Assembly: GCA_030427835.1 (NCBI GenBank)
Contig: JAUICN010000001.1
Span: 269,929 to 333,928 of the forward strand
Reading direction: 5' to 3'
DNA length: 64,000 nt
From: Polyangia bacterium
GTDB lineage: Bacteria > Myxococcota_A > Polyangia > Polyangiales > JAUICN01
This document shows positions 2,414-42,427 of this stretch, in pieces (positions within the stretch are counted from its first letter, which is position 1; the number at the start of each line of letters is the position of its first letter). The position numbers were made by a program, and so were the translations under genes. A model generated the notes under the pieces. That model saw nothing but the letters and a program-made list of their open reading frames with translations, was not told where the DNA came from and did no database searches.

Positions 2414-2443
2414 GCAAAGCGCCGGCTGCGGGTGATGGGGACA
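2414..2443 (-). promoter_or_regulatory. Phage regulon motif copy 1
   Basis: On the minus strand this reads TGTCCCC, 16 bases, GCTTTGC. It begins one base beyond the stop codon of the gp25-like gene and ends 19 bases before the TTG start of baseplate J. It has the same 30-base length as six other minus-strand copies. It is probably a promoter with -35 and -10 like boxes; that role is inferred from position, orientation and fixed spacing. Confidence 0.7.
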
Positions 2444-9064: not shown

Positions 9065-9259
9065 CTACGACCTCCGCTTTCCGGCCTTCTCGATCTCCTT
9101 GGCTTCGCGCGAGCGCTGATGACCGATGCGTTCGAGAAACCAGTCGCGGTCGGCGGTGGTCATGGCAAGCACCTCCGACAGACTCGCGCCGAGGCCCGAG
9201 CCTCCGTGCTGTCGCCAGCACATCTGGAAGATGCCCTCGCGCCAGCCATCGAGGTCTAC
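9065..9259 (-). CDS. Small tail assembly ORF, probably reached by -1 frameshift
   Basis: A frame encoding about 64 residues, [15 protein letters not shown] onward, ending with the basic helix [14 protein letters not shown]. It is open directly across the stop codon of the upstream T4-baseplate-type gene but has no good start there. The nearest in-frame ATG is at 9223, and the only upstream ATG (9373) would encode improbable sequence. At the junction the upstream frame reads CAG GGG TAG; slipping one base back on GGGG would read on into this ORF. Tailed phages often make a tail chaperone fusion this way just before the tape measure. Independent initiation at 9223 remains possible. Confidence 0.6.
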
Positions 9260-10029
9260 CCCTGGAAAGAGCTCGTGCGGCCCCGGCGACGCGCCGCCCT
9301 CTCCTTGCCGGGCATGAAGAAGGTCCGATCGAAAGGGAGGTCGACCTCCTGGGTGGCGAAGCACTCCGGGCACTCGATCTCGATGCCGGTGTCGACGCCG
9401 CAGTCGACCCGGTCGAACTCGTCGACGAGGAAGTCGGCGTCGCGCAGGCTCAGGTCCTCGATGAACTTCTTCTTGTCGCGCGCCTCGACGCCTTCGACCT
9501 CGAGTACCCGGAAGGCGAGCATCGCGGACAAGAGCTGGTCGCCCGCGTTGCGCCGGAGCTGCGGGAGCTTGCGTTCATCGGCGCCGGTCAGGAGCCGGAA
9601 CCAGACCCGCTTGCCCGCGTCGGGCAGCGTGGTCTCGAAGCGGTTCCCAGCGAGCAGCGCAGCCCGGCTGTCCTCCGACAGCACTCGGCACGGCAGCTCG
9701 GCGAGGTCCAGCTCCCACTCGATACGCGCACGGCAGGCCTCGCTCTGACAGTTGACCGCGAAGGCGTAGGTCGGGCCGTAGGTGAGCGCGCGGATCTGCA
9801 GCAGCGCGAAGAACCGATCGCCCTGGAGCACCACGCCCCAGTCGATGGGCTTCTCGCCGAAGTCATAGGGCCCGGCGTCGAGCGTCTCCTCCCAGCAGGC
9901 CGCGAGCAGCTCGTCCACCTGACCGCCAGACTTCGCGAGCCGACGATCGGCAAGGACCCGCTCCTCGCGAACCTTCATGCCGCGGATTCGGCCACTGAGC
10001 CCCGACGGGCAGGTGATGATCTCGGACAT
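9256..10029 (-). CDS. T4-type baseplate/tail assembly protein
   Basis: 257 residues from an ATG with AGGAGG upstream. The N-terminus [19 protein letters not shown] and the internal pairs Cys-x4-Cys (NCQSEAC) and Cys-x2-Cys (ECPEC) resemble the T4 baseplate protein family found before tape-measure genes in contractile-tail phages. The cysteines may bind a metal. The gene starts a transcription unit: motif copy 2 lies upstream, right after the inserted plus-strand gene. It is followed by the -1 frame ORF. Confidence 0.78.
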
Positions 10030-10065: not shown

Positions 10066-10095
10066 GCAAAGCGCCGGGCGTCAGGGGTGGGGACA
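10066..10095 (-). promoter_or_regulatory. Phage regulon motif copy 2
   Basis: Minus strand: TGTCCCC, 16 bases, GCTTTGC, ending 36 bases before the ATG at 10029. A short imperfect hairpin (CTGGGAGA / TCTCCAG) lies between the motif and the ribosome site. This copy would restart transcription of the tape-measure and baseplate genes downstream of the inserted plus-strand gene. Confidence 0.7.

Positions 10096-18919: not shown

Positions 18920-18920
<1 letters not shown>
18054..18920 (-). CDS. Scaffold-like prohead protein
   Basis: About 288 residues. The short conserved start [22 protein letters not shown] is the XkdF-associated prohead segment. It is followed by an acidic, Ala-rich region and long coiled coils (about residues 95-150 and 175-240). 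The C-terminus ([23 protein letters not shown]) is short and conserved-looking. This layout fits an internal scaffold processed by the upstream protease. The start ATG overlaps the protease stop (TGATG) and has AAGGAGG seven bases upstream. Confidence 0.75.
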
Positions 18921-21335
<2,415 letters not shown>

Positions 21336-21343
<8 letters not shown>

Positions 21344-21617
21344 CGCGGAGGTCCTCCGGGTCGCTGCCCCAGCTCGCATCGGCGGGTTGGCTGTTGAGGT
21401 CTCGCGGCCAGGGCTCTGCGGAAGTCGTCGGGGGGCTCTCAGCGAGCTCGGTGAGCACGCGCGTCAGCGACTCGACCTCCTTCTGCAGCTCGGCGACCGC
21501 CTCGGGCGAGGGCTCATCGCGCAGACGCTTCTCGAGGGCGACGACCCGCTCCCGGATCGCCTTCAGCTCGTTCGCGGCGTCGGCCGCTCGCTCTGTCGAT
21601 GCACGTTCCCTGGCCAA
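21336..21617 (-). CDS. Small coiled-coil protein with TTG start
   Basis: About 93 residues. The start is TTG at 21617, with GGAGG seven bases upstream and no ATG or GTG in a suitable place. Residues 5-60 are a heptad-like Ala/Glu/Leu/Arg coiled coil (NELKAIRERVVALEKRL, VAELQKEVESLTRVL); the tail is acidic. It begins the capsid/tail operon directly downstream of motif copy 3 and overlaps the protease-methyltransferase gene. A minor scaffold or chaperone role is inferred. Confidence 0.72.
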
Positions 21618-21635: not shown

Positions 21636-21665
21636 GCAAAGCCAGGGACCTGCGTTTTGGGGACA
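21636..21665 (-). promoter_or_regulatory. Phage regulon motif copy 3
   Basis: Minus strand: TGTCCCC, 16 bases, GCTTTGC. It begins one base after the TAG of the SPP1 gp7-like gene and ends 18 bases before the TTG start. With no known start between here and the tail tube, it would drive about 12 genes. Confidence 0.7.

Positions 21666-23270: not shown

Positions 23271-23274
<4 letters not shown>
23017..23274 (-). CDS. Second small Cys4 phage protein
   Basis: About 85 residues from the ATG at 23274, overlapping the portal stop (ATGA). Two Cys-x2-Cys pairs are present (CRMC and CDTC followed by AQRHD), suggesting a zinc finger. The N-terminus is helical (MQRAWLKQAQLDAARGVIA). It lies next to another Cys4 protein in the same operon. 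Function not recognised. Confidence 0.7.
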
Positions 23275-25078
<1,804 letters not shown>

Positions 25079-25082
<4 letters not shown>

Positions 25083-25288
25083 GCCGGCTCCTCCGCGTAG
25101 GCGACGAGGTTTTTCGGACCGAACGAGACCGAGCGAAGCCGCAGGCCGCGCTCGGCGACCTCGGCCTTCACGGCGTCACGGAGCCCGTCGGTCGTTGTCG
25201 CTTCGACTGAGAACGTCTCCCCGGCTCGAGGGGGCCCGGCGGGGCTTCGGTCCTTGGTGATGACGAAGAGCCTGACGGCGCGCTGCAT
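25079..25288 (-). CDS. Small protein before the portal gene
   Basis: 69 residues: a beta strand (RLFVITKD), a loop, then a helix (DGLRDAVKAEVAERG) and further strands. The ATG has GGAGG seven bases upstream. It follows a 102-base leader with a strong hairpin and motif copy 4. No family recognised. Confidence 0.65.
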
Positions 25289-25390: not shown

Positions 25391-25420
25391 ACAAAGCGAA
25401 TCGGCTGTGCCGTGGGGACG
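25391..25420 (-). promoter_or_regulatory. Phage regulon motif copy 4 (variant)
   Basis: Minus strand: CGTCCCC, 16 bases, GCTTTGT. It differs from the consensus at the first and last bases. It begins 11 bases after the stop of the hidden 75-residue gene and is separated from the next start by a 102-base leader, the longest in the set. Confidence 0.6.
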
Positions 25421-25431
25421 AGGCGACGCGC

Positions 25432-25659
25432 TCACCAACGCCATCGGAGACCACCGAGCGCGCCGTAGTCCGGCTGCCAGCGGCCGAACGGATCGCGTGC
25501 GACACCGCCCCAGCCCTGGGCGAAAGCCGAGAGCCCACCGGTGATGCGGTGAGCGTAGTCGAGCCCACCACCGGCGGCGTCCGGCCTCACGTAACCGAAG
25601 AAGTCGAGATGTCCGTGGCCCGGAGAGTACGCGCCAGCCCGATCGAGTCCGCGGCTCAG
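25432..25659 (-). CDS. Hidden 75-residue phage protein, probable CTG start
   Basis: In the frame one base off the holin end, an open stretch encodes a coherent Gly/Tyr/Trp-rich sequence: LDFFGYVRPDAAGG, LDYAHRITGG, FAQGWGGVARDPFGRWQPDYG, ending GGLRWRW. There is no ATG, GTG or TTG. A CTG overlaps the holin stop codon in a CTGA arrangement, mirroring the four-base overlaps elsewhere in this phage. The frame stops upstream shortly after this point. It sits in the lysis region, so a spanin- or lysis-accessory role is possible but unsupported by motif. Confidence 0.5.
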   Translation of the reverse strand: MSRGLDRAGAYSPGHGHLDFFGYVRPDAAGGGLDYAHRITGGLSAFAQGWGGVARDPFGRWQPDYGALGGLRWRW

Positions 25660-26135
25660 GCTGGCGTCGATGCCAAAGGGCGCGGCGACTCCGCGGCGGG
25701 CCTGGGCGCCGGAGCGGCCGAGACCGCTCGCTCGGTCAGACGGAGGTCATGCACAGCAGCCTCGACCTTGGAGCCGAGAAAGCTGTCGAGGGCACCGCCC
25801 GAGAGCCCGAGCACCTCCGCGAGCACCCGGATGCCTTTGGCGCCGAGGTAGCTCTTCACGTTGGCGACGGCCGCGTCCTTGATGCGACGCTTCTCGGCCT
25901 CGCTGATCTTGCCGTCAGCGCTGGCCGCCTTGATCTCCGCGACCACGGTCTGCTGAAGGTCCTTGACCGCGGTGACCACCGCGTCGTCCAGGCGAACCAG
26001 AACGCCGCGCAGGTACTCGTTGTCGACCTTGCTCCGAATGAAGCTCGCCAGCTTGGCGGCCGCCCAGGTCAGCGCAGCGACCAGCACCGGCGAAACCACC
26101 TGCAGGGCCGTGAGCGCAACATCGGTGAAGTCCAT
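25656..26135 (-). CDS. Holin-like protein (LLH type)
   Basis: 159 residues. One hydrophobic helix at residues 5-30 (VALTALQVVSPVLVAALTWA) is followed by a charged helical body with GKISEAEKRRIKDAAVANVKSYLG, a pattern like LLH-family phage holins. The C-terminus is Pro/Ala-rich. GGGAGG lies upstream of the ATG at 26135. Holins permeabilise the inner membrane to release endolysin; no endolysin was recognised in the window. Confidence 0.68.
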   Translation of the reverse strand: MDFTDVALTALQVVSPVLVAALTWAAAKLASFIRSKVDNEYLRGVLVRLDDAVVTAVKDLQQTVVAEIKAASADGKISEAEKRRIKDAAVANVKSYLGAKGIRVLAEVLGLSGGALDSFLGSKVEAAVHDLRLTERAVSAAPAPRPAAESPRPLASTPA

Positions 26136-26176: not shown

Positions 26177-26206
26177 CAAAGCGTGGGACGAGCTCGGCGG
26201 GGACAA
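26177..26206 (-). promoter_or_regulatory. Phage regulon motif copy 5
   Basis: Minus strand: TGTCCCC, 16 bases, GCTTTGC, ending 41 bases before the holin ATG at 26135. It would drive the holin and the hidden 75-residue gene. Confidence 0.7.
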
Positions 26207-30489: not shown

Positions 30490-31332
30490 TTACTCCTCGG
30501 GCTCGTCGTCGTCCTCGTCGTCCCAGCTCGCCGCGGAGTCGCCCCGCGTGGGGCCGACGTTGGCCGTGTGTCGGCCGCGTTCGCCGAGCTCGGGGTCGTC
30601 GTCGGGCTCGCCCTCCACCGCGGCACGTGGGCCGTCGTCGCCAGCCGTGGTTGCTTCCACCCACTGACCGGTCACTTCCCCGGAGGCTTCGTCGAAGACG
30701 GGCGGCGGGGAGTTTACGGGCGATTCTTGTTCACCAACATCGAGCACTCCACCGGCCGCGGTCACTTCATCGAGCTCGGCTGTTTGGTTCGCCTCGATGG
30801 ACTTCATCATTCGGCGATGCCGCACCTGCAGTTCCTCGAGCGAGAGCACGGCGTGGACCTCCTGCCGCGAGTCGGCGCCGCCCTGCACGAACTCCTTGAG
30901 CCGCACCATGGTGTTGAAGTCGGCCGGGTTGTCAAAGCGCACGCGCCCTTCGGAGAGCGCCTTCTCGAAGCCAGCCAGGTAGGTGTCGATGATGCGCAGC
31001 TCGTCGTCCTTGGACATCGCGAGCGACTGGGCGCGCATCTCGATGAGCTTCTGGTCGGTCTTCTCTGCGATACGGGCCTGGGCGACCTCGCGCCGGCGCA
31101 TGCAGTTGTGCTTCTTGGCGAAGTCGGCGATCAGGCTGTGCGAGACGCCGTAGCGACGACCGAGGTCGCGGTACGACGGGTAGACCACGGTGGTGCCCTT
31201 GCCGTCATCGCACTCGACGACCTCGCCGAACACCAGGATGCGGTCGAGCTCCGAGTACGGGATGCGCGGGCCTTCGCCCTTCTTCGGGCGGCCGATGGCG
31301 TTGCCGGTGCTCTCGGAGTCGTTCTTGCTCAT
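30490..31332 (-). CDS. Terminase small-subunit-like DNA-binding protein
   Basis: About 280 residues from the ATG at 31332, which overlaps the previous stop (ATGA). The region [24 protein letters not shown] is a helix-turn-helix typical of small terminases; coiled-coil helices follow to about residue 175. The C-terminal third is acidic, Gly/Pro-rich and probably disordered (ends in [10 protein letters not shown]). A repeat cluster next to its 3-prime end could be its DNA target. The identification rests on the HTH, position and length. Confidence 0.65.
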
Positions 31333-31667: not shown

Positions 31668-32722
31668 CACACCGTCTCCGCGTCCACGAAGCGCACGGGG
31701 ATGCCGCGGGCCTCGGCGCGTTCGATCTCGACGCGCATGCCGGCGGTGATCGACTGCCCGTAGACCCGCATCTCGTCGCTGGCGTCGAGCAGCTCCAGGC
31801 ACATCGCCAGGGCCTGCTCGCGCTCGGTCGCCTCGTCCATGAACTGCGGCAGGTAGAGCTGAGGCGCGACCGGCAGGTGGCCGCTAGCCGAGAGCGCCTT
31901 GCAGATCTCCGTCACCCGCTCGACGTTCTCGGCCGGCGCGTTGCGATACGGATGGCAGACGTAGACCCGCCGCGTGCGAAGGCCCGGCACCTGGCGGCGC
32001 TTGTCGAGGCGCACCAGCTCGGCAGCGCAGTAGTGGAGCGCGTCGAGGACCTCGGCGAGCGCCTCGCGCAGGTACTGCCGGCCGTCGTCGGCCTTCCACG
32101 GTCCGTACTGACCGCGGCCAGCGTCGATGCGGCGAAGCAGCGTGCGGAAGATGGCGCGCTCGTCTCCGGCGAAGGCCGAGAGCTGGGCATGGTCCTCCAT
32201 GGTCGGCAGCAGGCGTCGCGCGACCTCCAGGCTGGCCCGCGCATCGTCGAGGGCCCAGTGCTCCTCGCCACGCTCGATGCCGAGGTGTTTGCACACGGGC
32301 GTGAGCGACACCGAGTCGAGCGTTCCCGACGACAACAGCGGCCACGCCAGGGTCGCGGTGTCGAGCAGGTGGTGGTCGAGATCCTCCGGGCGGTGACCGA
32401 CGCGCTTCCAAGCGGCATCGAGGAAGCCGCGGTCGAAGGCGACGTTGTGACCGGCGAGCATCGCCCCTCCGAGCACGGGTGCCAGCTGGGCCATCGCCTC
32501 GTCGAGGGACACAGCATCGGTCCACGCCGCTTCGCTGTAGCCGTTGGTGCGCAGCGCCTCGGGATCCGCGTCTTCGATTCGCTCGGGCCGAACCTTGAGC
32601 GCGACCTCGGTCTCGACGACCAGCGTCTGTGGATGAACGCGGAGGACCGCCACCTCGAGCAGCTCATGGCGGGCCGGGTCGAGGCCCGTGGTCTCGCAGT
32701 CGACGAACACCAGCGGGCGCAT
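31667..32722 (-). CDS. DEDDh exonuclease fused to a DUF4406-like domain
   Basis: About 351 residues. Residues 1-180 are a DnaQ-like 3-prime exonuclease: [24 protein letters not shown] and [10 protein letters not shown] supply the DEDDh residues. Residues about 195-240 ([21 protein letters not shown]) form a helical linker. The C-terminal 100 residues ([11 protein letters not shown] through [20 protein letters not shown]) resemble DUF4406/deoxyribosyltransferase-like Rossmann domains. The combination suggests proofreading or nucleotide scavenging; the coupling is inferred. The open frame upstream of the ATG at 32722 runs through another gene and is ignored. Confidence 0.85.
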
Positions 32723-33882
32723 CACGCCACCTCCTTGGCCCAGAAGCGCGGCGAGTGGGTCTTCTTGGCGATGGCTTCGAGCTCGGCCTTGAGCAGGTTC
32801 ACTCGCGGGCGGTCCATCGACTTGCCCAGCTCCTTGAGCAGTCCCTCGAGGGCCTTGTTGTCGACCGAGACGATGCGTTCGACCAGCGCCTCCCGGTCGA
32901 GCCCGGTGGCCTCGCCGAGCACCGCGAGCGTGCGGTCGAGCGGGTAGTCGCTCTTGCTGGTCTTGAACATGGTGTAGCGGACGCCGCCCAGCACCAGATC
33001 GTCGTGCTCCTTGAGCGCGGTCTTGAGCACACCCTCCAGCTCGCCCTTGCGGGCGTAGAGCACCTTGGCGAGGCGCGCGACCTCCTCGCGTTCCTTGGCG
33101 ACGGCTTCGAGGTCGCTTGTGTCCTCGCAGATGAACTCGCGCTTGCCTTGCAGCGCGTCGGCGTAGGCCGGGCAGTGCTGGCGATGGTCGCAGTAGATGC
33201 AGTTCGAGTTCAGCCGGGCCGGGAACTCGCGGGCCTTGCTGATCGTGGTGCCGAGGGTGTCCACATAGCGGCGCGTGCCCTCGATGTCTTCGGCAGTGCG
33301 CTCGGTGGTCTGCCGCAGGCCATGGCGCAGCATCCAGAAGGTCAGCCGCACCTTCTTCGCCCACGGCCACAGCTCCTGCGCGGCCAGGTGGTACAGCGAC
33401 ATCTGCAGGCTGGCGTCGGTCTCCTCGCGGGTGAAAAGCTGGCGGTTGGTCTTGTAGTCGATGACCTCCACGGTCTCGTCGTCGACCCGATCGACGCGGT
33501 CGAGGTAGCCGATGACCTGGAAGCCGCCGATGGTGAGCCGGAACTCCTTTTCGACGGCGAGCACGTCGTGGTGATCGAGGATGCCCTGCTCGCGGACGAA
33601 GCGATGCACCAGCTCGAGCCCCTCGCGGAACACGTCAAGACCGGACATGCCCGACTTCGTCCACGCCTCCTGCCACAGCTCCGCAGCGCGGTCTTCGGAC
33701 AACGCGCCGACGCGTTCCTCTCGCATGTGCTCGAGCACGAGCCCTTCGAGCACCGCGTGCACGGCCGAGCCGAACAAGAGCGGAACGCCGGGCTCGGACT
33801 TGAGCCGGTCGAGGTAGTGGAGCTTATACGAGAGCGGGCACGTCTCGTACCTGGACAGCTTGGTGAAGCTCAGTCGGGTCAT
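32722..33882 (-). CDS. RecB/Cas4-like PD-(D/E)XK nuclease with Fe-S cysteines
   Basis: About 386 residues from the ATG at 33882, which has GGAGG nine bases upstream. [20 protein letters not shown] is the family start with its first Cys. [34 protein letters not shown] (D and E-x-K type site) and [13 protein letters not shown] follow, giving a four-Cys iron-sulphur cluster site as in AddB/Cas4. The C-terminal 120 residues are helical and charged. It heads a four-gene operon under motif copy 6 and probably takes part in phage recombination or host DNA degradation. Confidence 0.85.
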
Positions 33883-33913: not shown

Positions 33914-33943
33914 GCAAAGCGCCGACGAAGACCGCCGGGGACA
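33914..33943 (-). promoter_or_regulatory. Phage regulon motif copy 6
   Basis: Minus strand: TGTCCCC, 16 bases, GCTTTGC. It starts two bases after the stop codon of the Cys-rich 193-residue protein and ends 31 bases before the nuclease ATG at 33882. It would drive the nuclease-exonuclease-resolvase-small terminase operon. Confidence 0.7.
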
Positions 33944-33945
33944 AC

Positions 33946-34527
33946 TCAGGTCGGCTTCGGGGCGTCGGCCTTCGCGAGCTTCTCGAACGAGGTGACCTTC
34001 GCGCCCGGGAACGCAGCGCAGACGGCGGTGAGCGTCGCTGCGTGATCGATGCGCAGCTCTCGTCGCTGTTGCTCGGTGTACTCGGGCACGATCCACACCT
34101 CGCCGATCTCCTCGGACGCGAGACAGACCTCGACGCCGAGTGCCTTGAACGACGCGATGTCCTCGTCGGTCAGGTTGCGCACGAGGACGGCGCCACTGTC
34201 GGTCGCTGGTGGCTCCGCGATCGGAGTGGGCTTGGGCGTCGGCGGTGGCGCGGCCGTCTCGGGCTTCTTCGACGGCGGCTCCTCGGGGAGCGGGTTGCCG
34301 AAGAGGTCGCGTGCGGGCTGGGGCTTCGCCTCGATTGGAGCGGGCACGGCGTGTCCGTTCGCCTTCATCCACTCCTCGCACATGAAGTGGTCTTCGCGAG
34401 CGCAGCTACCGTTGCCGAGATAGCTGCGACAACGCTTCGACCCGGCCGGCGCGTCGTAGTCGGGGCAGGTGAACGAGGCGGGGGTGGCCGGCTGGTCCAC
34501 GACCGCGAGCCGAGCCTTCAGTGACAT
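33946..34527 (-). CDS. Cys-rich early phage protein of unknown function
   Basis: 193 residues. The N-terminal 55 residues have four or more Cys and a His (CPDYDAPAGSKRCRSYLGNGSCAREDHFMCEEW), suggesting a metal-binding module. A Pro-rich linker follows (about 65-110), then a compact C-terminal domain (AVLVRNLTDEDIASFKALG, EIGEVWIVPEYTEQQRREL). It overlaps the 56-residue gene by ten bases. No family recognised; possible recombination accessory. Confidence 0.68.
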   Translation of the reverse strand: MSLKARLAVVDQPATPASFTCPDYDAPAGSKRCRSYLGNGSCAREDHFMCEEWMKANGHAVPAPIEAKPQPARDLFGNPLPEEPPSKKPETAAPPPTPKPTPIAEPPATDSGAVLVRNLTDEDIASFKALGVEVCLASEEIGEVWIVPEYTEQQRRELRIDHAATLTAVCAAFPGAKVTSFEKLAKADAPKPT

Positions 34528-34688
34528 GGCTCGGCCTCGGCTTCGGCCGCGGGTTCCTCCTTGTCAGGTTGGTCGTCGCGGTCGGGTTCGAGACCGCGGG
34601 CGAGCATTTGGATCAGGGTGGCGGCCAGGATGTCGACCACCTCCTCGCGGGGCGGGCGACGGGCCTCAATCGGCAGAGAGCTTTTCAT
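34518..34688 (-). CDS. Small early protein of 56 residues
   Basis: 56 residues from the ATG at 34688 with GGAGG six bases upstream. A central helix (REEVVDILAATLIQMLARGLEP) is followed by an acidic, Ala/Glu-rich tail. It is the first gene after motif copy 7 and overlaps the Cys-rich gene. Function unknown. Confidence 0.6.
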   Translation of the reverse strand: MKSSLPIEARRPPREEVVDILAATLIQMLARGLEPDRDDQPDKEEPAAEAEAEPCH

Positions 34689-34718
34689 GGAGAACCTCCG
34701 GTGCATGTGTCCGGAGGG

Positions 34719-34748
34719 GCAAAGCGCCGGCGACGACGAGAGGGGACG
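34719..34748 (-). promoter_or_regulatory. Phage regulon motif copy 7 (variant)
   Basis: Minus strand: CGTCCCC, 16 bases, GCTTTGC, ending 30 bases before the ATG at 34688. It drives the 56-residue and Cys-rich genes leftwards. Confidence 0.65.
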
Positions 34749-34779
34749 ACGGCGTCGGCGCCGAGGGCGCCGCGGACAC

Positions 34780-35058
34780 GGTGGACGACTGTGGACGCGC
34801 ACCCTGTCCCAGAAAAACCGGAGCCGATTCAGCCGGTTGAGTCTGTGTGGACAGGATGGACAGGATTCTTCTCTCACCTCTACGAAGAGAACGGGTGCCC
34901 ACACAGGCGTGCTCCGGCGAGCAAATCAACGGCTCTCTGCAAGCTGCTCCCTGGTCGCGCAAAGCCGTCCACACCGTCCACGGGGCTCAACCACTCGGAA
35001 TCGCGACAGAAGCCCGCGGCCGGCAACCTGTCCACGGGCGGCCACGTTCGCGTCCACA
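34780..35058. repeat. Cluster of DnaA-box-like repeats
   Basis: Matches to the high-GC DnaA box form YYRTCCACA: complete at 34846-34854 (reverse) and 34965-34973. One-mismatch copies lie at 34780-34788 (reverse), 34790-34798 (reverse), 34974-34982, 35028-35036 and 35050-35058. Both orientations occur. This is consistent with a phage replication origin or an iteron array; that is inference. Confidence 0.5.
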
Positions 35059-35064
35059 TCCAAA

Positions 35065-35109
35065 TACCGAACATTTGATGCACGGACATTTGTTCGGTAG
35101 TTTCCAGGG
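35065..35109 (+). promoter_or_regulatory. Operator and probable leaderless promoter of the LexA-like operon
   Basis: An inverted repeat with perfect nine-base arms (TACCGAACA at 35065-35073 and TGTTCGGTA at 35091-35099) encloses a direct repeat, CGAACATTTG at 35068 and CGGACATTTG at 35083. TTGATG (35075-35080), 17 bases, then TAGTTT (35098-35103) can serve as promoter boxes, putting the start of transcription close to the ATG at 35110. No Shine-Dalgarno sequence is seen. The overlap of operator and promoter predicts autorepression by the wHTH protein. Confidence 0.65.
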
Positions 35110-35682
35110 ATGGCACGGGGGCTGACCGACAAGCAGAGAACCGTGCTCGAGGTGGTCGAGCGGTTCTGGCGCGAGCGCGGCATGGCGCCGAGCGTGGCCG
35201 ACGTGGCTGAGGCCATCGAGGTGGGCCGGTCCACGGCCTACCAGCATCTGGTGGCGCTGAAGAAGAAGGGCTTCGTCGACCACGAGGAGGGGACGGGCCG
35301 TAGCTGGAAGCCAACCGGCCGCCTGCCAGACGAGGAGACTCGGCCAGGGATCCGCAAGGTGCCCATCGTGGCCAAGCCGCCGCTGCGCAAGCGGGCGGCG
35401 CTCACCAAGGACGTCGACGGCTGGATCACGGTCGATGACGGCGACGAGGAGCTCTTCGCGGTGCGGGTCACGGAACAGCTCAAGGCATCGTCGCCGGACA
35501 TCGCTGTGGGTGACGTTGTGATCGTCGCTCGTGGCGTCGCGGTCGCCGCGGGGGACATCGTCTTGGCCGCAGCATCCAAGAGCGCCGCCAACCTCGTGCG
35601 CGCCACCGGACCCGGCGGGCCCGAGGTGATCGGCAAGGTGATCGAGGTTCGGCGGAATCTCCGCGGCAAGGAGGCTCGCTGA
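35110..35682 (+). CDS. LexA-like repressor lacking the protease residues
   Basis: 190 residues. Residues 4-68 are a LexA-type winged helix (LTDKQRTVLEVVERFWRERGMAPSVADVAEAI, then GRSTAYQHLVALKKKGFV). The C-terminal half aligns with the LexA/S24 fold (VPIVAKPP near 84, FAVRV near 116, GDVVIV near 134, GKVIEVRRNL near 175). Where LexA has the catalytic GMSMK, this protein has TEQLK, and where it has the Lys of TVKRL it has NLVRA. The Ala-Gly cleavage pair is also absent. It therefore looks unable to self-cleave. It overlaps the next gene by one base, so it heads the QueC-like operon. The alignment is by eye. Confidence 0.8.
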   Translation: MARGLTDKQRTVLEVVERFWRERGMAPSVADVAEAIEVGRSTAYQHLVALKKKGFVDHEEGTGRSWKPTGRLPDEETRPGIRKVPIVAKPPLRKRAALTKDVDGWITVDDGDEELFAVRVTEQLKASSPDIAVGDVVIVARGVAVAAGDIVLAAASKSAANLVRATGPGGPEVIGKVIEVRRNLRGKEAR

Positions 35683-36452
35683 TGGGACACATCCGCCTCG
35701 GCAGGCTCCCGCGCACAAAGCGGTGGAACGAGGTCGTTGAGCTCATCGGTGGCAGCGCGAGCTCCGCGGCGGTGGCCTCCGCGACCCTCGATGCAGCCGA
35801 AGGTGACCTCGCCCGCGCTGCATCCGACCCCGGTGTCCTGCGCTCGTTCTATCTGCTGACCCAGCTCCCTGATGCCGCACGTAGTGAAGACTTCGCGTCG
35901 GCTCTTCGGGGCCTGGGAATCGACGTATCGGCCTCGCCAACGACGGCCGAGCTGTCTGCGGCGCTGTCCGACGCCATCGACCGCCACATCAACAGCACGA
36001 GGCGACGCACCGACCTCGGCGACATGGCGCAGTCGGCCGCGGTCGAGACGCTCGCATCGCTCGTCAGCGGTCGCACCCAGAGCCTCTTCGGCTCGACCCC
36101 AGATGACGTTCGCCGTGAGGTCTCCAAGCTCGCCACTGAGAAGCAGTTCGGCACGGTCGCTCGCGACTTCTTCGCCCGCTTCGCGCAGCGCTTCTTGACC
36201 TACTACGTCAGTCGCGAGCTCCCGCAGCACGTCGGCCCCGACAGACGATTTGGCAGCGCCGCCGAGCAGCGCCGCTTCAACGAAGCGCTCGACCTTCACT
36301 GCAAGCAGGCCTCGAAGATCGTCGAGAAGTTCGCTGGCACCTGGTACTCGAAGGCGCGCTTCGAGAAGGACCTCACCGAGGACCGAACCGCGCGCTTCGT
36401 CGGCTACGCGCTCAAGAAAATGCGGCTTGAGCTGCGGAGGGGGGATGCATGA
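35682..36452 (+). CDS. Unknown protein (Met-Gly start) coupled to the QueC-like enzyme
   Basis: 256 residues. The N-terminus MGHIRLGRLPRTKRWNEVVEL would expose glycine after Met removal. The body is helical, with TRRRTDLGDMAQSAAVETLASLV near 105-130, RDFFARFAQRFLTYYVSRELPQHVG near 160-185, and a basic C-terminus. Start and stop overlap both neighbours (TGATG and ATGA). I recall this type of protein beside QueC-like genes in defence-associated pairs, but cannot verify a family. It may be the substrate or partner of the QueC-like enzyme; that is inference. Confidence 0.78.
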   Translation: MGHIRLGRLPRTKRWNEVVELIGGSASSAAVASATLDAAEGDLARAASDPGVLRSFYLLTQLPDAARSEDFASALRGLGIDVSASPTTAELSAALSDAIDRHINSTRRRTDLGDMAQSAAVETLASLVSGRTQSLFGSTPDDVRREVSKLATEKQFGTVARDFFARFAQRFLTYYVSRELPQHVGPDRRFGSAAEQRRFNEALDLHCKQASKIVEKFAGTWYSKARFEKDLTEDRTARFVGYALKKMRLELRRGDA

Positions 36453-38512
36453 GCTCCTCCGCGGGCGAGCGTTGGATCCTCTGTGGCGGGGCGAATCACG
36501 CCTCCGCGCCTGAGCATGCGTTGCGCCTTGCCGTGTCGGGGCCGGACGCCAACCTCACCGTCGACATCGAGGGGCTGGCCAGCAATCTGATCGTGAACAT
36601 CCCACCGGTGATGAAAGACCTGGTGCGTGTGGCCTCGTACGTCATCGCGGCCGACCAGGCGTTCCCACGAGGTGATGCCGACCGCATCGACCTCGGTGAC
36701 AACTGGCGCCGAGACCTGCACTTCGTGGTGGCCGTCGAGGAGCCCGACCTGTGGAACTCGCCCGAGATGGTCGAGGCACTCCAGTCGACGCTCGGATTCC
36801 TCTCCGACGACAGCTACACCTTCGAGTTCGAGGCGCTGGCGAACCGAGAACCCGAGCAGCTCAAGTTCACAGGGCCCAATGGGGAGCCGTTGGTCGGGGG
36901 TTGGAACGACATCGACGTCGTTCAGCTCTTCTCGGGCGGAATGGACTCGTTCGGCGGCGCGGTGCAGGCGCTCGCCATCGACAAGCAGCGCCCGGTGCTC
37001 GTCAGTCACCGAAGCGCGTCGAAGACCTGGAAGACCCAGCGCGAGCTGGTCAGCGACCTGCAGACGTGGTCGTCGCGCAACGGCATCCCGCACGTCGGCA
37101 TCCAGGTCCACAAGCACGACAAGGCCTTGCGGAAGGAGAGAACCCAGCGTTCGCGCTCGTTCCTCTACGCCGCGATGGCGGGCACCGTCGCCCACATCAT
37201 CGGCCACGACAGGATCCGCTTCTACGAGAACGGCACGACGAGCTTCAACCTGCCGATCTCTCCTCAGATCGTTGGTGCGCGTGCGACTCGGACCACCCAC
37301 CCGCGGGTGTTGCTCGGCTTCGCAAAGATTCTCGGTTTGGCTCGGGGCAAACCGATGGCGGTCGAGAACCCGTTCGAGCTCAAGACGCGAGCCGAGGTGC
37401 TTGACGTCATCAACAGCGCCGGCGCTGCGGGGATGCTGCGCCACACCGTGAGCTGCGCCCATGTTCACCGCAGCAGCACGATGCACCCTCACTGCGGCGT
37501 CTGCTCGCAGTGCATCGACCGCCGATTCTCCGTCTTGGCGCGAGGGCTCGAAAACGAGGATCCGGAAGAAGGTTACGCGGTCGATCTCATCAAGGGAGGG
37601 TGGAAGAAGGACGGCGAGCGGGCGCTGGTGCTCGACTACATCGATGCTGCCGATCAGTTCACCAGCTTCGCCAACGCCGACCAATTCCTCGGCAGCTTCG
37701 GCGAGGCGGCCCGGGCCATCCCAGCCATGATGGAGTTGTCCGGGAACGACGGCGACACCGTGTCGAAGAATATCTTCGAGATGCACAAGCGGCACGGCGA
37801 AGACGTGGGCCGCGTGATCTCCGAGACCATGGCCAAGATGGCGAAGTGCATCCGCACGCCGGGCTCGCTGTCGTCAGACTCCTTGCCAGCGATCCTGTTT
37901 GCACGAGGACAGCAGGCACCGGGCACCGACCCATCATTCGACGCCGACCCAGCGCTTAAGGCGGAGAGCGAGTACCTCTTCCGTCAGTTTGGACAGAACT
38001 GGACCGTGCGCTTCCGAGGCGGCACAGCGTTCTCGATCCGCCCGTCGAAGGGGATGACGTACTTGCACACGCTGCTGCAGCGACCCGGTGAGGACCTGAC
38101 AGCTTTTGCTCTCATCGATGTGGCCGAGGGGCGCGAGGTAGCGTCGCGTCCCCTCGCGACATCGCTTGGGGTCGACGATGACGCCATTCGTTCGGTCAAG
38201 CAGACCTACGACGAGCTCAAAGCCGAGCGAGACGAGGCCGCCGAGTTCTACGACGACGCGACGGTCGCCCGTTGCGAGGCAGAGATGGAGAAGATCGAGG
38301 CGTGGCTGAAGAGCGAAGTCGGTCTCGGCGGCAAGGCACGTCGTGAGAACCCCGAGCAGAAGAAGGCTCGCATGGCGGTGACCAACGCGATCAGCCGCGC
38401 CATCAAGACGATCACCAAGGCCAACAAGCGCTGCGGCGAGTACCTGAAGGACCAGATCCGCACTGGCTTCTTCCTCCGCTACCGCGATACCGGCATCCCC
38501 TGGGAAACGTAG
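36449..38512 (+). CDS. QueC-like enzyme with N- and C-terminal extensions
   Basis: 687 residues, about three times the length of housekeeping QueC (roughly 230). Residues about 155-365 carry the QueC signatures: the PP-loop SGGMDS (162-167) for ATP-dependent chemistry and four zinc cysteines (336, 349, 352, 355 in HCGVCSQC context). Residues 1-150 form an unknown N-terminal domain. The C-terminal 320 residues are helical with an HTH-like segment near 555-575 and a basic end. QueC makes 7-cyano-7-deazaguanine; QueC-like proteins also occur in the Qat defence system and type IV CBASS. No other queuosine gene is nearby, so a defence or modification role is more likely. It overlaps the preceding gene by four bases. 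Confidence 0.85.
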   Translation: MSSSAGERWILCGGANHASAPEHALRLAVSGPDANLTVDIEGLASNLIVNIPPVMKDLVRVASYVIAADQAFPRGDADRIDLGDNWRRDLHFVVAVEEPDLWNSPEMVEALQSTLGFLSDDSYTFEFEALANREPEQLKFTGPNGEPLVGGWNDIDVVQLFSGGMDSFGGAVQALAIDKQRPVLVSHRSASKTWKTQRELVSDLQTWSSRNGIPHVGIQVHKHDKALRKERTQRSRSFLYAAMAGTVAHIIGHDRIRFYENGTTSFNLPISPQIVGARATRTTHPRVLLGFAKILGLARGKPMAVENPFELKTRAEVLDVINSAGAAGMLRHTVSCAHVHRSSTMHPHCGVCSQCIDRRFSVLARGLENEDPEEGYAVDLIKGGWKKDGERALVLDYIDAADQFTSFANADQFLGSFGEAARAIPAMMELSGNDGDTVSKNIFEMHKRHGEDVGRVISETMAKMAKCIRTPGSLSSDSLPAILFARGQQAPGTDPSFDADPALKAESEYLFRQFGQNWTVRFRGGTAFSIRPSKGMTYLHTLLQRPGEDLTAFALIDVAEGREVASRPLATSLGVDDDAIRSVKQTYDELKAERDEAAEFYDDATVARCEAEMEKIEAWLKSEVGLGGKARRENPEQKKARMAVTNAISRAIKTITKANKRCGEYLKDQIRTGFFLRYRDTGIPWET

Positions 38513-38669
38513 GCCGCGCCTCTCCGTCCGTTTCTCCGCGCCCGTAATGCACTGAAAACACGCTGAGTTTCTGCCGCTACGCCGTTTGTAACGACTGCAA
38601 CGCCCTGAGTTGCGCCTCCGGTTCGAGGCGTCCGGGAAGTCCCCGGAGCCCGAACAACCGGAGGACAAG
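38513..38669. other. Intergenic region after the QueC-like operon
   Basis: 157 bases with no gene. A six-base-pair hairpin, CGCCTC-CGGTTC-GAGGCG, lies at 38614-38631 upstream of the small Cys4 gene. There is no T tract, and no promoter is obvious. Confidence 0.5.
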
Positions 38670-38885
38670 ATGCAGTCAGGAATTGGGCACCAGAACTCTC
38701 AGTGGCGCTGCCGCAAGTGTGGCACGCTCCTGGGCGTCGCTACCGGCGACGAAGTCGAGGTCCGCTACAAGACGGCCGTCTACCGCGTGCGCGGCGAACT
38801 CGCGACCGACTGTCGCAAGTGCGGCACCGCGAACCGCTTGGACACCCGCAACGCCCACCCCCGCAACGAACGGAGGTGTGCGTAG
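38670..38885 (+). CDS. Small Cys4 protein, Com-like
   Basis: 71 residues from the ATG at 38670 with GGAGG five bases upstream. Two Cys-x2-Cys pairs (WRCRKCGTLLG and TDCRKCGTANR) form a zinc-finger pattern like the phage Mu Com translational regulator; the C-terminus is basic. It lies just before the sigma-like gene. The Com similarity is in the cysteine spacing and length only. Confidence 0.65.
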   Translation: MQSGIGHQNSQWRCRKCGTLLGVATGDEVEVRYKTAVYRVRGELATDCRKCGTANRLDTRNAHPRNERRCA

Positions 38886-39041
38886 CCGCGATGACCTTCG
38901 CCGTCGTCGCGGTGGTCGTGGCGGCGGCCCCTTGATCAACAACCAGTAACTGACCGGCAACGCCAGAGGCTCCTCGAGGCCCATCGGCACCGCGCCCCAG
39001 TCGGGACGCGCCGATGGCCACCGCCGCGAGCGGAGGAGCCC
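38886..39041. other. Leader region of the sigma-like gene
   Basis: 156 bases with no supported gene; a 14-codon open frame is probably meaningless. GGAGGAG lies just before the ATG at 39042. No copy of the 30-base regulon motif is present here, so the sigma-like gene itself seems to be under different control. Confidence 0.5.
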
Positions 39042-39980
39042 ATGGGCCTTCATCAGATGAAGTGCGCTCTCAGAGCAGAGGTGCGCGCAGAGAGAAATCA
39101 GAAGCGTTTTGAAGAAGCCAAGAAACACCAACTGGAGCTGCGCGAGCACGAGACCGTGCTCAGCGTGCTCGCCGTCCTCGGTGACGAGTCGGCGCTGCGC
39201 TACGCGGAGAAGGAGGCGCTCACCCGGGCGCTGCTCCGCGAGCATAAGCGACGGCCGCATCCGTTCTGGAACGCGGTCCTCATCGTCGCCTTCTACCCGA
39301 TGCTGGCGCGCCTGCGCGGTCGCATCTTCGGCGACGCCGTCCCGGGCGACGACCTCGACCAGATCGTGCTGTCGTCTTTCTTCGAGGTCGTTCGCGACTT
39401 CCCCCTGAGTCAGAGGCGCGACCGCACCTGCATGTACCTGCGGCAGATGACCCAGCGGGAGGTCTTCAAGCGGGTGCGGGCCGAGCAGCGCGACCTCGAG
39501 CAAGTGCGCTTCGACGACCCCGAGGACATCTCGCGCCGGCAAGACGACCTCGAGTCCCTCGGTCACCTGGTGAGCTGGCCCGAGACCAAGCCCAACAAGC
39601 CGCGTCGCCGTGATCCGAAGGAGAGCGCCGCGTTGGTGTCGTTCCTGGTGGAGCGCGCCGGTCACATCTTGGACGGCGACAAGCTCGAGCTGGTGGTCGC
39701 CACCCTGGTCCGCGGCGAGCTGCTCACGTCCTACGTCGATCGCGTTCACCCGGACCTGTCCCCATCGGAACGGCGCCGAACCTACCAGCGCATCAAGCGG
39801 CGTCACTCGCGGGCCATCGCGCGACTGCGTGAGGTGCTCGCGGATCTTCGTGGCGATTTCGAGTGTCCCCAAACCGCGTGTCCCCGACCGGACCCCACCC
39901 AGGCTTTGACCTCCTGTGACTCGGCACGCCCGCCGCGCGGCGGATCCCACCGAGCCCGCAAAGGAGGTCAGAAGCCATGA
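39042..39980 (+). CDS. RNA polymerase sigma-factor-like protein
   Basis: 312 residues. Residues about 78-150 match sigma region 2 in pattern: YPMLARLRGRIFGD, DDLDQIVLSSFFEVVRDF, MYLRQMTQREVFKRVRAEQRD. Residues about 205-270 look like region 4, with a final DNA-binding helix-turn-helix (LSPSERRRTYQRIKRRHSRAIARLREVL). There is no region 1.1 or 3, as in ECF-type sigma factors; the first 70 residues are a charged helix. The last 40 residues are Pro/Arg-rich and contain the DNA of motif copy 8. It could direct RNA polymerase to the phage regulon motifs. Distant similarity; judged by eye. Confidence 0.62.
   Translation: MGLHQMKCALRAEVRAERNQKRFEEAKKHQLELREHETVLSVLAVLGDESALRYAEKEALTRALLREHKRRPHPFWNAVLIVAFYPMLARLRGRIFGDAVPGDDLDQIVLSSFFEVVRDFPLSQRRDRTCMYLRQMTQREVFKRVRAEQRDLEQVRFDDPEDISRRQDDLESLGHLVSWPETKPNKPRRRDPKESAALVSFLVERAGHILDGDKLELVVATLVRGELLTSYVDRVHPDLSPSERRRTYQRIKRRHSRAIARLREVLADLRGDFECPQTACPRPDPTQALTSCDSARPPRGGSHRARKGGQKP
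39879..39909 (+). promoter_or_regulatory. Phage regulon motif copy 8 (plus strand)
   Basis: TGTCCCC (39879-39885), 17 bases, GCTTTGA (39903-39909); it is 31 bases long, one more than the minus-strand copies. It lies inside the 3-prime end of the sigma-like gene and ends 67 bases before the ATG at 39977, so it would drive the replication operon rightwards. A second TGTCCCC at 39864-39870 has no matching downstream box. Confidence 0.6.
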
Positions 39981-40219
39981 GCACCAAAGACCAGCGACCG
40001 GCGCTCACCCGCGCCTTTCGAGAAGTGACGCTCAGCCTCATCGGGCTCTTCGAGCTCTACGACGCCGAGCCCGAGCTCGTGGAGGCGACGGCCGATGCCC
40101 TCGGTCGCGTCTTCCGGGCGCACCTGAACCGCTCGGGTCCGCTCCCGAGCGACGAGGCCAAGAGCGCCCTGCACGGGTTGCTCGACGAGATGGATTCCCT
40201 GGCTGCCGAGGCGGCCTGA
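39977..40219 (+). CDS. Small helical phage protein of unknown function
   Basis: 80 residues: a helical protein with FREVTLSLIGLFELYDAEPELVEATADALG and a C-terminal helix. AAAGGAGG lies ten bases upstream of the ATG; the stop of the sigma-like ORF overlaps its start (ATGA). It is the first gene after motif copy 8. Function not recognised. Confidence 0.65.
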   Translation: MSTKDQRPALTRAFREVTLSLIGLFELYDAEPELVEATADALGRVFRAHLNRSGPLPSDEAKSALHGLLDEMDSLAAEAA

Positions 40220-40250
40220 ACAACCAACCCAACACTGGAGGACCAAGACA

Positions 40251-40976
40251 ATGACGACTGCATGGGAAATGGCCACGACGATGGCCGACAAGCACGCGAA
40301 CTCGGGCGGCATCTTCGTTCGGCTCGCGGCCAACGGAGACAAGATCATCGGAGCGTTCTGCGGCGAGCCTTACGCCCGCGAGGTGATCTGGACGGGCGAG
40401 CGCTACGAGCAGTTCGACGAAAACAACAGCGCGCACCAGGGCAAGCGGCCCAGCCTGCGCGTGATGCTGAACTTCTACGTGCCCGCCGAGGGCGCGATGA
40501 AGATCATCGAGGGCGGCACGGTCTGGTTCAAGGACGTGCTCAAGGTCCGCGACAAGTACGGCCTCGATAAGTGGCTCTTCGAGATCGAGCGCCACGGCGA
40601 CGCCGGCGACCCGAAGACGACCTACAGCATCCTGCCCGAGGAGAAGCTCGACGACGAAATGCGGGCGCGCATCGCCGCCGCCGAAGCGCACGACCTCAAG
40701 TCCATCGGCACCGGCAACGACGAAGGCGACGGCAGGAGCTCGACCTCCACCAAGAAGTCGAGCAACGCCGCCGGGCCCATCGACCCGCGTGTCGCCGGTG
40801 ACCTCGTCGCCAAGCTCAAGGCCCTGCCGCGCTCGGATGTGGATGCCTTTCTCGCCGAGTTCGGGGTGCAGCGGGTGCGCGACCTCGAGGCCAAGCACGA
40901 GACGGCGGCGCGGGCGTTCATCGACCAGCTCCTCGCCAAGCAGAGCCAGCCGGAAGAAGTGGACCCCTTCGCATGA
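40251..40976 (+). CDS. Single-stranded DNA-binding-like protein
   Basis: 241 residues. Residues 15-125 form a beta-rich domain (GGIFVRLAANGDKIIGAFCGEP, SLRVMLNFYVP, WLFEIERHGDAGDPKTTYSIL) like phage gp32/gp2.5-type OB-fold proteins. A polar linker and a helical region (160-230) follow. The C-terminal tip EEVDPFA resembles the acidic SSB tail that recruits partners. It overlaps the helicase start. GGAGG lies nine bases before the ATG. Confidence 0.7.
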   Translation: MTTAWEMATTMADKHANSGGIFVRLAANGDKIIGAFCGEPYAREVIWTGERYEQFDENNSAHQGKRPSLRVMLNFYVPAEGAMKIIEGGTVWFKDVLKVRDKYGLDKWLFEIERHGDAGDPKTTYSILPEEKLDDEMRARIAAAEAHDLKSIGTGNDEGDGRSSTSTKKSSNAAGPIDPRVAGDLVAKLKALPRSDVDAFLAEFGVQRVRDLEAKHETAARAFIDQLLAKQSQPEEVDPFA

Positions 40977-42427
40977 TGGGCGAGGCAACGGTGCAGGCGG
41001 TCGTCGACGGCATGATCCGGTTCAACCCGCGGGAGGTGCATCCACGCGCTATCGCGCACCTCCTGCGGGACCTGAGCTTCCCCAACCCCGAGTACATCTC
41101 GCGCGTTCGGTACGGACGCTGGGTCGGAACCACGCCCGAGGAGATCTCGCTGCTCGAAGAGCAAGATGGGCTCGCCACGGTTCCCCGCGGTGCCGTGGCC
41201 CTCGTTCGCGAGGCCGTGCGCGCTGCGGGACAGGACATCACCTTCGTCGATCGCCGCACCGTCTGCCCAGAGGTGGTCTACAACTTCGGCTTCGAGCTGC
41301 GGAGCTACCAGGAGCGCGCGGTCATGGCTCTGGTCAACCGCGCGCAGGGCTGCGCCATCGTGCCCTGCGGGGGCGGCAAGACGGTCATCGGCACGGCCGC
41401 CATCGCGCGCACGGGGCAGCCCGCGCTCATCCTGGTGCACACCCACGATCTGGTCGAGCAGTGGGCCGCCACGGTGAAGGACGCCCTCGGCCTCGACGCG
41501 GGAATCGTCGCTGGCGGCAAGTTCGACCTGCGGGACCTCACCGTCGCGACGGTGCAGTCGCTGGTCACCCTCGATGACGGTGCACGAGCAGAGGTCGCCA
41601 GCCGCTTCGGCACGGTCATCCTGGACGAGGCCCATCACGCACCGGCGAGCGTCTTCCGCGAGGTGCTCTCGTGGTTACCGGGCAAGTTCCGCTTCGGGCT
41701 CACCGCGACGCCCGAGCGCAGCGATGGGCTCACGCCGATGCTGCACCTCTGCCTCGGTCCCGAGGTGTTCCGCATCGACCACCAGAAGCTCGTCGAGGCC
41801 GGGCACCTCGTCGTGCCGCGGGTGGTGCCGGTCTCCACCGGCGCGACCACGGACGCCGAGACCCACGCCGCCATCGTCGGTGACCTGGCGGCGGACCCGG
41901 ACCGCAACCGGCTCATCGTCGAGCTGGTTGCCCGGGAAGCGGCTGCCGGCTGCAGCGTCCTCGTGCTGTCGGGGCGCGTCGATCACTGCCAGCGGCTCGC
42001 CAAGCTGCTGACCGCCGCGGGCACCGAAGCTGTCGCGCTCACCAGCCGCGTCGCCAAGGGCAAGCGCAGCGGCATCATCGACCGCTTTCGCGACGGATCG
42101 CTGAAGGTCGTCTGCGCCACCTCGCTGGCCGACGAGGGCCTCGATGTCTCCCGCCTCGAGCGGCTCGTGCTCGCCACGCCTGCGCGCGCCGAGGGTCGAA
42201 CCATCCAACGGCTCGGTCGCCTGATGCGACCCCACCCAGGGAAGCGCACCCCAGTGCTCTACGACCTGGTCGACAACATCCCGCTCGCCCGCCGCCAGTT
42301 CGCCGCGCGCAAGCGAGCCTATCGCAAGGTACTCGGGACGGAGGCCCTCCAGAGGTCCGGCACCCAGCAGCGGACCTTCTCTGCACCGGAGGGCAACGAT
42401 GAACCGTGGCGCGCCATGGCGTGCTGA
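40973..42427 (+). CDS. UvsW/XPB-like SF2 helicase
   Basis: 484 residues. FELRSYQERAVMALVNRAQG, CGGGKTV (Walker A, about 131-138), DEAH (about 222-225), LTATPER (motif III) and the C-terminal domain with VCATSLADEGLDVSRLERLVLATPA and IQRLGRLMRP are standard SF2 motifs. The length and short N-terminal domain resemble phage UvsW repair/recombination helicases. It is in the replication operon. Confidence 0.88.
   Translation: MMGEATVQAVVDGMIRFNPREVHPRAIAHLLRDLSFPNPEYISRVRYGRWVGTTPEEISLLEEQDGLATVPRGAVALVREAVRAAGQDITFVDRRTVCPEVVYNFGFELRSYQERAVMALVNRAQGCAIVPCGGGKTVIGTAAIARTGQPALILVHTHDLVEQWAATVKDALGLDAGIVAGGKFDLRDLTVATVQSLVTLDDGARAEVASRFGTVILDEAHHAPASVFREVLSWLPGKFRFGLTATPERSDGLTPMLHLCLGPEVFRIDHQKLVEAGHLVVPRVVPVSTGATTDAETHAAIVGDLAADPDRNRLIVELVAREAAAGCSVLVLSGRVDHCQRLAKLLTAAGTEAVALTSRVAKGKRSGIIDRFRDGSLKVVCATSLADEGLDVSRLERLVLATPARAEGRTIQRLGRLMRPHPGKRTPVLYDLVDNIPLARRQFAARKRAYRKVLGTEALQRSGTQQRTFSAPEGNDEPWRAMAC

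Follow-up and report, generated by a model that had tools for sequence, protein, structure and literature searches.

A predicted phage sigma factor as the candidate reader of a two-part late promoter motif in a myxobacterial prophage

The 64,000-nucleotide stretch of Polyangia bacterium DNA analysed here (the window) carries a prophage in which one two-part motif recurs upstream of late genes, and the locus raises the question of which protein reads it. The original prediction named the product of the gene at 39042, a 312-aa protein, as a sigma-factor-like candidate. We put at about 0.88 the probability that this protein is a phage sigma factor that recruits the host core RNA polymerase to these two-part promoters; core binding, promoter use and timing are the steps that we infer.

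The prophage looks like a complete temperate myophage. Its plus strand carries the genes of a LexA-type repressor (35110), the candidate sigma factor, an SSB-like protein, a helicase, a primase and a large serine integrase. The terminase, portal, head protease, sheath, tape measure and baseplate genes lie on the minus strand. Two other genes were recorded in this layout. The 807-aa protein of 18920-21343 matches families of DNA methyltransferases as well as of head maturation proteases, and its gene is apparently a fusion within the late head module. The 687-aa protein of 36449-38512, encoded between the repressor and the sigma gene, has a weak QueC match and is possibly a DNA-modification protein.

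The motif is GTCCCC-N16-GCTTTG, or in its fuller form TGTCCCC, 16 bases and GCTTTG (Table 1). Eight exact copies with a 16-base spacer lie on the minus (late) strand, seven in the window and one just to the left of it. One further exact copy, with a spacer of 17, lies on the plus strand in the 3′ end of the sigma gene; other exact copies at spacers of 13-19 were not found in the 144 kb examined. The eight copies in the window compare with 0.21 expected, and none of 100 shuffles reached eight. All eight minus-strand copies are located in intergenic gaps, each upstream of a late gene and in the same orientation, in a prophage of which only 5.6% is non-coding; three of these gaps measure just 49-63 bases. 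For most copies, the end of the motif is 19-41 bases from the start codon. The wide form of the motif matched six times in the 3.3-Mb host genome, each time within the prophage. No copy was found upstream of 39042, so the sigma gene has a leader free of the motif, as predicted. The motif was also considered as an RNA element, which was rejected, as 14 copies gave no consensus structure. An Rfam search over window positions 34000-41000 found nothing.

Table 1. Positions in the window of the predicted sigma factor gene, its domains and neighbours, and the copies of the motif
Feature	Position	Strand	Remarks
Phage sigma factor gene (predicted)	39042-39980	+	312 aa; PHROG 36246 family; based on ORF, RBS, homologues and match of the model to the sigma-70 family
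N-terminal helical part	39042-39191	+	Residues 1-50; placed over sigma region 1.2 by structural alignments
Sigma region 2	39192-39509	+	About residues 51-156; structure alignments
Sigma region 4-like DNA-binding domain	39615-39857	+	About residues 192-272; structure comparison
Motif copy in the sigma gene 3′ end, spacer 17	39880-39908	+	Points into 39977 and the replication genes; recurs in relatives
80-aa protein	39977-40219	+	Found behind sigma in eight relatives; overlaps the stop codon of the sigma gene
Structured sigma leader	38963-39044	+	GGCTCCTC (38968-38975) can pair with the Shine-Dalgarno GGAGGAGCC (39032-39040)
LexA-type repressor	35110-35682	+	S24 peptidase match is weak; lies upstream of sigma and is probably the lysogeny switch
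Late promoter motif, spacer 16	34720-34747	-	Upstream of 34518-34688 and 33946-34527
Late promoter motif, spacer 16	33915-33942	-	63-base gap upstream of exonuclease gene 32722-33882
Late promoter motif, spacer 16	26177-26204	-	Upstream of holin-like gene 25656-26135
Late promoter motif, spacer 16	25392-25419	-	Upstream of 25079-25288 and portal gene 23271-25082; orthologous site in many relatives
Late promoter motif, spacer 16	21637-21664	-	49-base gap upstream of 21336-21617 and methyltransferase/protease gene 18920-21343
Late promoter motif, spacer 16	10067-10094	-	Upstream of baseplate hub gene 9256-10029
Late promoter motif, spacer 16	2415-2442	-	50-base gap upstream of baseplate wedge gene 883-2394

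The ORF at 39042 is genuine, with an ATG start, a strong Shine-Dalgarno sequence (GGAGGAG) and a coding score of 60. A Pfam profile search had been proposed together with the original prediction; direct Pfam and NCBIfam searches with the 312-aa protein gave no match above the cut-off, and PDB sequence searches found nothing. A DUF3175 match (E 0.011) lay below the cut-off and was set aside as chance. The protein matched PHROG 36246 over its full length (1.4e-40), a family annotated as "unknown function". Homologues were gathered from IMG/VR and from myxobacterial genomes, and 25 were aligned. The homologues showed 35-49% identity to the 312-aa protein, the 25 aligned ones 35-48%, and all 25 matched PHROG 36246. 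Four of them had a sub-threshold Sigma70_r2 match in the direct Pfam search (best 0.079), and three matched PHROG 1740, a sigma family (best 0.0052). Searching with three members of the family by tblastn gave no match among 50,697 phage records, and the plasmid search gave weak matches at chance level only. An alignment of eight diverse homologues was too divergent for the locus search. By Pfam Sigma70_r2, the host genome has 16 sigma genes and none of them lies in the window, in line with the claim that the 39042 gene is the only sigma-like gene there. An in-frame TAG was observed in region 4 of two homologues from different phages, L013 (L013:10769) and G017 (L015/L087), at nearly the same position (after KKAY and after MYQR). 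The motif downstream of the L013 allele is intact. These alleles count against the sigma reading; they may belong to decayed prophages, or something else may happen at that spot.

A total of 35 non-redundant loci bearing a homologue (578 kb) were scanned for GTCCCC and CTTTG at spacers of 13-20. The pair occurred 77 times, and the mean of the other 599 box permutations was 3.7. The four highest permutations read this very motif in a shifted register, and among unrelated pairs the maximum was 20. The 77 copies are not independent events, since related loci share orthologous sites. Separate viral contigs carried 12, 8, 6 and 5 copies against 0, 1, 0 and 0 for the reversed pattern. The L116 contig (G125, 59 kb) holds 12 copies, mostly with a spacer of 19 and mostly on one strand, and none of the reversed pattern. 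Matches were confined to spacers of 15, 16, 17 and 19; the spacer differs by clade and sometimes within one phage, and the spacer-17 loci group together in the sigma protein tree. A range of 15-19 is wider than is usual for one sigma factor and counts against a sigma factor as the reader. A blind scan of IMG/VR with the motif only returned 33 stretches, about half of which carry clear homologues of the window phage genes, and in these kin the motif often stands before the same late gene as in the window. The remaining stretches show no clear kinship and look like chance. One contig (G108) has three motif copies and no sigma gene in its 41 kb, which also counts against this reading, though the contig may be a fragment. 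In a terminase-bearing relative (G022), neither sigma nor motif was found in the 20 kb read, and two further terminase-bearing contigs (G024 and G054) end before the sigma position. The motif tracks the phage family across many host genera.

The best evidence for the predicted sigma factor as the reader comes from sequence comparison with one relative, G059, in which sigma and motif appear to have changed together. The gene order of G059 is that of the window, with the repressor, zinc-ribbon protein, sigma, 80-aa protein, SSB, helicase, primase and recombinases on one strand and the late genes on the opposite strand. The terminase, exonuclease, RusA-like protein, SSB, helicase and primase of the two phages are 58-75% identical. 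The sigma factor is only 27% identical, the lowest of all genes compared; divergence is also seen in the repressor (38% identity), the 80-aa protein (42% identity) and the integrase (43% identity). The window-type motif was not found in G059. Its motif at four matching sites is GTCCC(A/G)-N16/17-GCTCT. The exonuclease gene and the portal operon are both preceded by GTCCCA-N17-GCTCTA, GTCCCG-N16-GCTCTA heads the late strand, and the copy in the 3′ end of the sigma gene reads GTCCCA-N16-GCTCTC. The strict G059 form (three sites) had a permutation mean of 0.34, and 21 of 1,800 permutations reached three, which is a modest control. The comparison covers four sites of one genome that vary among themselves by a letter or two, and it owes its weight to the fact that the changed sites are orthologous ones. 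The co-change, the co-occurrence of gene and motif and the restriction of the motif to the phage family support the proposal that the sigma factor is the candidate reader.

The protein could also be a sigma factor while the motif is the binding site of another phage regulator that activates the late genes with a host sigma factor. Candidates are the TerS-like protein of 30490-31332 (weak HTH match), the conserved protein of 33946-34527 and the 80-aa protein. The first two are also conserved beside sigma in 23-27 of 34 loci, and the third is among the diverged genes of G059. We regard such a regulator as improbable. The motif of G059 changed at every site, the 30490 and 33946 proteins kept 58% and 48% identity, and sigma fell furthest; because these neighbours stayed closer, sigma is favoured over them. 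The 80-aa protein was found in eight loci only, whereas the motif is family-wide, and two boxes about 16 bases apart just before genes have the geometry of a promoter, not that of an operator beside a normal promoter. A host sigma factor might read the motif instead, in a host with at least 16 sigma genes, and the phage protein would then have another role, such as that of a decoy or an inhibitor of host transcription. This is highly improbable, since no copy of the wide form occurs in the host genome outside the prophage and the motif goes with the phages from one host genus to another.

The reading of the 312-aa protein as a sigma factor was examined on an AlphaFold model built from the 25 homologues (mean pLDDT 84). 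All 50 listed PDB structure matches were sigma-70-family chains or sigma-containing models, and the named BFVD (viral) matches were mostly phage sigma factors. The full-chain rmsd to sigma factors was large, for which a different angle between the two domains is the simplest explanation. Taken by itself, region 2 fitted sigma structures at 2.5-3.2 Å over 94-106 residues, as in 5h6x (94/94 residues, 2.5 Å), 8vjl_B (101 residues, 2.9 Å) and 8i24_F (96 residues, 3.2 Å). Alignments could also start from residue 1, for example with 9e84_F (model 1-150, 106 aligned, 2.9 Å). The residues W76, P86-L88, D106, L133-Q135 and T137 of region 2 are invariant in the 25-homologue alignment. The C-terminal domain, predicted alone, matched the −35-binding region 4 of SigD, SigL, SigF and SigB at Z of about 7 and 1.6-3.5 Å; Foldseek alone was weak for this domain (E 0.7). 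An hhalign comparison with ten host ECF sigma factors scored 50; none of 59 column shuffles exceeded 20, and the reversed alignment scored 12.7. This comparison agrees with the model, and the structure check suggested at the outset points to the sigma-70 family. On fold resemblance, the 39042 gene product is a predicted phage sigma factor of this family. That it is instead a Q-type antiterminator or an HTH activator is very unlikely. Phage 21 Q does align to the C-terminal model as well (Z 7.9, 3.4 Å, tied with sigma region 4), but Q proteins are without sigma region 2, the core-binding and −10-reading domain, which is present here at 2.5-3 Å over about 100 residues.

The original prediction had further likened the protein to ECF sigma factors, with regions 2 and 4 and without regions 1.1 and 3. 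Part of this may stand. Region 2 and a region 4-like domain were found, and the position of region 3 is taken by a disordered linker of low confidence with no region 3 domain. The predicted sigma factor may share this composition with the group 4 (ECF) factors, and its profile matches those of the host. It is not a plain ECF factor, as residues 1-50 lie over region 1.2 and the boxes are not ECF-type; its length of 312 aa and its phage origin also differ. Typical ECF promoters have "AAC" at −35 and "GTC" at −10, unlike TGTCCCC and CTTTG.

The copy of the motif inside the sigma gene had been counted as copy 8. Both of its boxes are exact, and its spacer is 17, not 16. In L013, L076, L077, L083 and L100 the 3′ end of the gene has this site as well, and L078 and L079 (GTCCCT) and G059 carry variants of it. 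Because the codon frame takes two forms among these genes and the encoded peptides differ, the site is kept as DNA. The recurrence shows that the embedded copy is not there by chance. The 80-aa protein that follows had no Pfam or PHROG match. Its predicted promoter would be the motif inside the sigma gene, and it is possibly a partner of sigma, a candidate anti-sigma factor or co-activator. The two pairing segments of the sigma leader are about 60 bases apart. The CCAGAGGCYCC segment and the GGAGG box are conserved in L013, L081, L083 and L108; the folding z of the leader RNA was −2.9 in the window, −5.2 in L013 and weaker in others, with little or weak covariation. The leader hairpin is a possible translational switch.

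The location of the sigma gene differs between lineages. In the Myxococcus-type relatives and L116, it belongs to the late cluster, flanked by homologues of window genes 31329 and 30490, and a motif copy stands upstream of it on its own strand. A sigma gene within a motif-headed late operon makes self-amplification likely, and sigma probably amplifies its own synthesis in these phages. With one mismatch allowed, the motif was not found upstream of the late operon in L077, L078, L088-L090, L097, L098, L101 and L114, so autoregulation is proposed only for the Myxococcus-type loci and L116. The original prediction of an early switch, with a regulator outside its own regulon, therefore applies to the window lineage, where the sigma gene is on the early strand, and does not extend to the Myxococcus-type relatives.

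We propose that sigma very probably switches on the late genes through the motif. Upon prophage induction, probably through loss of the LexA-type repressor, sigma would be made from the plus-strand early genes and would bind the host core RNA polymerase. It would direct the core to TGTCCCC (−35, read by region 4), 16 bases and GCTTTG (−10, read by region 2) at the eight sites that head the late units of the minus strand, among them those for exonuclease, holin, portal, head protease and baseplate. If the start sites lie 6-9 bases past the −10 box, as in phage 7-11, the 5′ ends of the messages would fall at the Shine-Dalgarno sequence or a short way before it. The embedded promoter would drive the small protein at 39977 and reinforce the replication genes behind it. 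In the Myxococcus-type relatives, the late-operon promoter upstream of sigma would add positive feedback.

The analysis gives a predicted function to PHROG 36246, which standard searches had missed, and predicts which genes form the late regulon in a group of myxobacterial prophages that is widespread but unstudied. Pairs such as the window type and the G059 type form a natural series of sigma/promoter pairs for studying the joint change of specificity, and may supply a sigma-promoter pair for GC-rich hosts without cross-reaction to host promoters. More tentatively, and as a reading that we judge somewhat less likely than not, this may be a family of myxobacterial temperate phages with a drifting sigma-promoter code of their own in genomes otherwise much alike, in which sigma is kept in or beside its regulon by an operon or an embedded 3′ promoter and its translation in the window lineage is gated by a conserved RBS hairpin.

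The principle is already known from 7-11 gp47, phiEco32 gp36 and Xpf; the family, its promoter code and the embedded promoter are new within the open literature as far as searched. Xpf/Pcf of Bacillus PBSX is listed as sigma2-sigma4, group IV (PMC10141391). Like the window protein, Xpf is a sigma-like positive control factor of a prophage, a likeness of description, and it differs in its size of about 20 kDa and its Bacillus prophage. The window sigma factor is likened to gp47 and gp36 by its working, homology beyond the sigma fold not having been found in the tblastn search of phage records. The phiEco32 gp36 is also a phage sigma factor and drives middle and late genes, from a single-box promoter that is explained by its lack of homology to region 4 (PMC8948821) and that differs from the two boxes of the window. 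A close parallel in working is gp47 of Salmonella phage 7-11, with the two-part late promoters GTAAtg-16-aCTA and starts 6-9 bases away (PMC8948821). Phage 7-11 is a lytic podovirus with AT-rich boxes, whereas the boxes of the window prophage are GC-rich. Both phages combine a sigma factor with two-part promoters of 16-base spacing upstream of late genes, and the gp47-type feature is present in the window phage as a two-box motif that stands before late genes and is absent from host genes.
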